64,000 nt of DNA, taken from positions 1 through 64,000 of the forward strand of contig JAJPIT010000029.1 of assembly GCA_021324615.1 (NCBI GenBank), given 5' to 3'. The translations under genes and the position numbers were made by a program. Position 1 is the stretch's first letter. Each line of letters opens with the position of its first letter. This document shows positions 59,818 to 60,834 of this stretch, piece after piece. The notes beneath the pieces are model-generated. The model was not told the DNA's origin. It made no database searches and saw nothing but the letters and a program-made list of their open reading frames with translations. This stretch comes from Terriglobia bacterium. GTDB lineage: Bacteria; Acidobacteriota; Terriglobia; Bryobacterales; Bryobacteraceae.

Positions 59818-60600
59818 TCAATCATGGACAGTGTAGCGCCGGATGGCGGCGGCCCGGCCGGTTTGTTCGTCGATTTCGACGATCACCGCGTGCAGCTCCG
59901 CGCCGTGTTTGGCCGCTTCCATTCGCACCGGCATCTGGGTCAGGAATTTTTGCAGCGCGATGCTCTTCTCGACGCCGATCACCGAATGATACGGACCCGT
60001 CATTCCCACATCGGTTTGATAGGCGGTGCCGTTGGGCAGAATGCGCGTATCGGCGGTCGGGATGTGCGTGTGCGTGCCGATGACGGCCGAGACGCGGCCG
60101 TCCAGATACCAGCCGAGGGCCATCTTCTCGCTGGTCAGCTCGGCGTGAAAATCGAGGAAGCGGACCCGTACGGTTTCCGGCAGTTCCGCCAGGAGTCGAT
60201 CGGCCTTGCGAAACGGGCAATCGGTCTGCGGCATATAGGTCCGGCCTTGCAGATTCAGGATCGCGCAATCGACGCCGTTGCGGGCGGCCACCACCACCAC
60301 ACCGCGCCCCGGCAGATCCTCGACATAATTCGCCGGACGCAGCAGGCGCGGCTGGCGCGCGAAATAGTCGTAAATTTCCCGCTTATCCCAGATGTGATTG
60401 CCGCTGGTGAGGACGTCGAGTCCATAGCCGAACAGCTCATCGGCGAGCGCAGGCGTGATGCCGAATCCGCCGGCGGAATTTTCCGCGTTGGCCACCGTCA
60501 GATGGATGTTTTCCGCCGCGACGATGCTTTTCAGATGCCGCGCCACCAGGCCGCGGCCGGAAGAAGCAAATATATCGCCGATGAAAAGGATGTTGGTCAG
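59818..60600 (-). CDS. YmdB-family metallophosphoesterase (TIGR00282), start at CTG proposed
   Basis: A 260-residue phosphodiesterase of the YmdB group, a cyclic-nucleotide-processing enzyme in Bacillus. VANAENSAGG, TSGNHIWDK and GTHTHIPTAD supply metal ligands. The family begins with ILFIGDI, and that sequence (NILFIGDIFASSGRGLVARH) is in frame here upstream of the first standard start (GTG at 60546). Between a TAG (60637-60639) and 60546 the only near-start codon is CTG at 60598-60600, which gives a full N-terminus with Asp9. TAGAAA (60613-60608) ends 7 nt before it. The GTG would delete the metal-binding Asp. Confidence 0.8.
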   Translation of the reverse strand: MTNILFIGDIFASSGRGLVARHLKSIVAAENIHLTVANAENSAGGFGITPALADELFGYGLDVLTSGNHIWDKREIYDYFARQPRLLRPANYVEDLPGRGVVVVAARNGVDCAILNLQGRTYMPQTDCPFRKADRLLAELPETVRVRFLDFHAELTSEKMALGWYLDGRVSAVIGTHTHIPTADTRILPNGTAYQTDVGMTGPYHSVIGVEKSIALQKFLTQMPVRMEAAKHGAELHAVIVEIDEQTGRAAAIRRYTVHD

Positions 60601-60612
60601 GAGAAGCTTTCT

Positions 60613-60821
60613 AAGGAGCGCACCACTCCAGCCGTCCTAGCCTCCGTCATTGACCCTGAACTTCTAACAGGGGGGATCCCCCGCGCGCCTTCAGGCTTCT
60701 CCCTGGCGGCTTCCGCCGCCGGAGCTTGCACACCAGCGCGAAGATCGAGTCGGACCCCATGACATTGACTGTTGGATCAATTTATTAGAGGCCGCACACA
60801 AACCAAGCAGGAACGCTCCTT
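60613..60821 (-). ncRNA. ssrS: 6S RNA (ssrS) candidate
   Basis: About 209 nt on the minus strand fold into the long, interrupted rod of 6S RNA, the regulator that mimics an open promoter and binds sigma70 polymerase. Closing stem AAGGAGCG (60821-60814) pairs with CGCTCCTT (60620-60613). Inner stems are GGCCTC/GAGGCT (60793-60788/60644-60639), ATTGATCC/GGGTCAAT (60781-60774/60656-60649), AACAG/CTGTT (60773-60769/60670-60666), GGGG-TCC with GGATCCCC, and CGCGC/GCGCG. The tip is GGCGGC-GGAA-GCCGCC (60720-60705). An extended -10 sits 5-6 nt upstream. Location before a ymdB gene matches the family's usual context. Confidence 0.82.
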
Positions 60822-60825
60822 GTTG

Positions 60826-60834
60826 ATGATAGCA
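60826..60834 (-). promoter_or_regulatory. Extended -10 promoter of the 6S RNA
   Basis: TG-C-TATCAT (minus strand, 60834-60826) has 5 of 6 core matches plus the TGn extension. It places transcription start at about 60819-60821, exactly where the 5' arm of the closing stem begins. No good -35 is visible. Confidence 0.65.

Follow-up and report, generated by a model that had tools for sequence, protein, structure and literature searches.

The minus strand of positions 60613–60821 of the window, the 64,000-nt stretch of DNA analyzed here, almost certainly holds, to judge from its sequence, the single 6S RNA gene (ssrS) of a Bryobacteraceae bacterium (Acidobacteriota). 6S RNA is a common bacterial RNA that restrains RNA polymerase. 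The locus is an ordinary member of this well-known family, and the initial annotation had named it correctly. The features discussed below are the following:

60613–60821, minus strand: very probable 6S RNA gene (ssrS), about 200–209 nt; RF00013 match of 50.9 bits at 60617–60816; 17 base pairs changed on both sides among 21 genus members
60826–60834, minus strand: extended −10 element TGCTATCAT without recognizable −35, from the sequence and its conservation in the family
60756–60785, minus strand: central bubble, 5′ strand (AAAUUGAUCCAACAGUCAAUGUCAU region), with many consecutive invariant columns in alignment A1
60699–60724, minus strand: terminal stem with GGAA tetraloop, from the predicted fold; helix 10 of the consensus, with three pairs changed on both sides
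60644–60673, minus strand: central bubble, 3′ strand (CCCCUGUUAGAAGUUCAGGGUCAAUGACGG region), with GGGUC and AUGAC invariant in A1
59818–60600, minus strand: ymdB (TIGR00282 family metallophosphoesterase; PF13277, TIGR00282), with a probable CTG start at 60600

Identification of the 6S RNA gene

Scanning the whole window with Rfam gave a single match, to the 6S/SsrS family (RF00013), at 60617–60816 on the minus strand. The match spans the full model (1–187 of 187) and lies above the gathering score, so the check with this model on the minus strand, suggested along with the initial annotation, was passed. It scored 50.9 bits (E = 3.1 × 10−7 for the whole window), just 4.5 bits over the gathering threshold of 46.4. 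The RNA resembles the Rfam family in its length, its rod with a central bubble, its GC-rich tip and a covariance match over the whole model that exceeds the gathering score. It differs in a score at the low end and in the sequence of the bubble (UUGAUCCAACAGUCAAUGUCAU / GGGUCAAAUGAC), which is the lineage's own. A search of the genome, which is 99% complete, found this one 6S copy and no second. The window lies in a Bryobacteraceae genome: the nearest named ymdB to its own, 95% identical, comes from a Terriglobia metagenome-assembled genome (MAG), and the next come from Bryobacteraceae and other acidobacterial MAGs.

Among relatives, RF00013 detected 6S RNA in 21 of the 23 genus genomes (15/15 of those with a completeness of 90% or more) and in 97 of the 151 class genomes. 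With a model built from the genus, 13 genomes of the family or order were retested, and 11 of them gave a 6S match; seven of these matches lie in genomes where the class-wide RF00013 search, run with stricter filters than the retest, had given nothing.

Structure and covariation of the rod

The segment from 60821 to 60613 on the minus strand is predicted to fold as one rod of −93.4 kcal/mol (z = −2.64), and none of 200 shuffled sequences was equally stable. It is closed by a perfect 8-bp stem formed by AAGGAGCG (60821–60814) and CGCUCCUU (60620–60613), and its tip is GGCGGC-GGAA-GCCGCC, a GGAA loop on six G–C pairs. Both elements had been claimed initially, and each was read in the sequence and recovered in the predicted fold. 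A rod of six stem segments had also been described; the rod stood, but the number did not, as the consensus has 11 helices, and either strand of the central bubble forms a hairpin among them.

Covariation was evaluated in an alignment of the 6S RNAs from 21 genus genomes (A1), whose mean column identity of 78% leaves enough variation for the test. The consensus structure is paired in 98.3% of the cells, compared with 41–49% in slid controls. Changes on both sides were found in 17 of 64 pairs (shuffles: mean 8.9, with 0/500 reaching 17; slid controls: 4–6), confirming the compensatory changes anticipated for homologous loci. The covariation score was 0.248, against 0.163 for shuffled and at most 0.090 for slid alignments, and covarying helices occur in the tip as well as in the closing and inner arms.

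Both strands of the central bubble are nearly invariant across the 21 sequences of A1, with runs of invariant columns on each, as would be expected for the part that meets the polymerase. The consensus for the 5′ strand contains a local hairpin (AUUGA/UCAAU) and a helix GUCAU/AUGAC, and that for the 3′ strand a local hairpin CCCU/GGGG. Since the AUUGA/UCAAU and GUCAU/AUGAC helices are invariant, covariation cannot test them. The Rfam model pairs the bubble differently (UUGAUCC with GGGUCAA), and the bubble may adopt pairings other than the consensus helices.

Promoter and expected transcription start

The initial annotation had assigned the RNA its own extended −10 promoter, and this held. The element TGCTATCAT is found at 60834–60826, with its last base 4 nt ahead of the first paired base, and the pattern TGnTAnnnT directly precedes 6S in 20 of the 21 genus loci, as it does in 42 of 49 distinct family loci (nine loci fetched twice being counted once). 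A two-hexamer scan for a TTGACA-type promoter found none, and TGCTATCAT lacks a −35 hexamer at the customary spacing; an empty scan of this kind is expected for an extended −10. Transcription is expected to start at about 60819–60821, and therefore the outermost one or two pairs of the closing stem may lie outside the transcript. Upstream of 6S, a creatininase-family gene (PF02633; 60868–61746, minus strand) ends 33 nt before the extended −10.

The kept promoter motif also bears on a different origin of the structure, namely a GC-rich inverted repeat formed by chance or a decayed 6S pseudogene. An Rfam score near the threshold would agree with such an origin, but the covariation speaks strongly against it: across the genus, the paired positions show compensatory changes and the bubble hardly varies. 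The RNA is also the sole 6S copy of a 99% complete genome. The probability of a chance or decayed structure is thus negligible, and a genuine 6S RNA gene is the preferred interpretation.

The downstream ymdB gene and its probable start codon

The downstream open reading frame, initially called ymdB-like, was identified as YmdB, a phosphodiesterase, by both Pfam (PF13277, E = 5.7 × 10−104, profile 1–252 of 253) and NCBIfam (TIGR00282, 284.8 bits against a cut-off of 254.15, profile 2–258 of 266). The GTG at 60546, listed as its start, was rejected: it would cut off the conserved N-terminus (LFIGDIF). Between the upstream stop and this N-terminus, the window contains no in-frame ATG, GTG or TTG. 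In the genus, the codon aligned at this place is TTG in 13, CTG in 4, GTG in 2, ATT in 1 and ATA in 1 (n = 21); an ATG start occurs in none of the 21 genus genomes (window 60598–60600, minus strand, and loci L098–L117), whereas of 28 distinct loci from other relatives, 26 have an ATG one codon later. Because the GTG removes the N-terminus, no canonical start lies upstream and the relatives align a non-ATG codon, translation in the window probably starts at CTG 60600, 12 nt past the closing stem of the 6S RNA.

Of the 21 genus loci, 11 carry a TTAGAAA motif (60608–60614 in the window, minus strand) in the stretch that separates 6S from the ymdB start, and in 9 of them it lies 7–15 nt ahead of the start. 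It could be a candidate ribosome-binding or processing site. One idea is that UUAGAAAG before ymdB is a putative Shine–Dalgarno-like site; the 3′ tail of 16S rRNA was sought with two patterns and not found.

Co-transcription of 6S RNA and ymdB is likely, to judge from the 12-nt gap on the same strand, the conserved gene order and a search for an intrinsic terminator between the two, which found none. A gap of more than 100 nt in some relatives counts against it.

Gene order across the class

Within 250 nt 3′ of 6S and on the same strand, ymdB was found in 62 of the 97 class genomes with a 6S match, a count in which some loci end too early to show the neighbor. The order is kept in all 21 genus loci. 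By family, it was observed in 17/21 genomes of the window's own family (f1), 10/11 of f4, 21/21 of f6, 3/3 of f7, 7/12 of f8, 2/3 of f9, one each of f5 and f12, and 0/24 of f10. In f10, the gene after 6S is lgt in 21 of the 24 genomes (for example L072 and L024), and ymdB lies elsewhere in the genome in all 11 that were checked. The claim that ymdB adjoins 6S in some lineages is thus upheld within this class, but a partial literature search found no report of 6S–ymdB adjacency, nor any of 6S synteny in Acidobacteria. At gathering level, no 6S was detected in the 2 kb upstream of ymdB in five Desulfuromonadales, Geobacteraceae and deltaproteobacterial loci, where a weak 6S would escape. RNase Y is a common neighbor of ymdB; in this genome, the search for it (PF12072) gave a sub-threshold match alone, on another contig.

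The position of the RNA raises the question of whether it acts mainly in cis as a ymdB leader, an attenuator or riboswitch-like 5′ UTR, instead of as a free 6S RNA. A leader would fit its location: ymdB starts 12 nt after it on the same strand, all 21 genus members share this order, and no intrinsic terminator was found in between. Nevertheless, RF00013 is matched end to end, ymdB never follows 6S in the 24 genomes of f10, and the two lie on separate contigs in four f1 genomes (G036, G043, G075 and G145). Since 6S occurs without ymdB after it in f10 and apart from it in those four genomes, the RNA is independent of ymdB, and a leader is very improbable compared with a 6S RNA in its own right.

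On the other side of 6S, zapA is located upstream in most genomes of f4, f7, f8 and f9, in 10 of 24 of f10 and in none of 21 of f1. In the genome studied here, zapA is on another contig, adjoining apparent rpmI and rplT genes, and no 6S copy was found there. About 500 nt without an obvious gene follow this zapA (L229, 1780–2295), starting with an inverted repeat; no RNA family was matched at threshold in this segment. A parsimonious reading, in which we infer the order of events, is that the 6S–ymdB pair is a remnant of an older zapA–6S–ymdB array that lost zapA in f1 and ymdB in f10. Comparable arrangements are the zapA-ssrS-ygfA locus of Escherichia coli and the ZapAB-SsrS-(FAU1)-EVE arrays of beta- and gammaproteobacteria (PMC7641849). 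As in these, 6S lies directly 5′ of a same-strand protein gene, and zapA is upstream of it in several acidobacterial families; the differences are that the gene following 6S here is ymdB instead of ygfA or EVE, and that the window's own family has no zapA next to 6S.

Proposed function and significance

Sequestration of the RNA polymerase holoenzyme and release through product-RNA synthesis are established for the 6S RNAs of E. coli and Bacillus subtilis. By family membership, the RNA of the window would have a role in the control of RNA polymerase, and its expression, polymerase binding and product RNAs may be expected by analogy. Transcription from its own extended −10 promoter would yield a rod of about 200 nt with a central bubble, mimicking an open promoter as studied 6S RNAs do. 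The rod would sequester the holoenzyme with the housekeeping sigma factor as growth slows, and the polymerase would then copy the bubble into short product RNAs, releasing the 6S RNA. Read-through past the 3′ end, where there is no recognizable terminator, would probably also provide ymdB mRNA. A more speculative and rather doubtful extension is that the 6S precursor in Bryobacteraceae is also the 5′ end of the ymdB mRNA, so that its processing would set YmdB output, with translation in the genus further lowered by the loss of ATG.

A lineage-specific model recovers Bryobacteraceae 6S copies missed by the class-wide search with the Rfam model. For a little-studied phylum, these results contribute a 6S RNA with good support as well as a conserved 6S–ymdB gene pair, in which a possible connection between 6S biogenesis and YmdB expression can naturally be explored.
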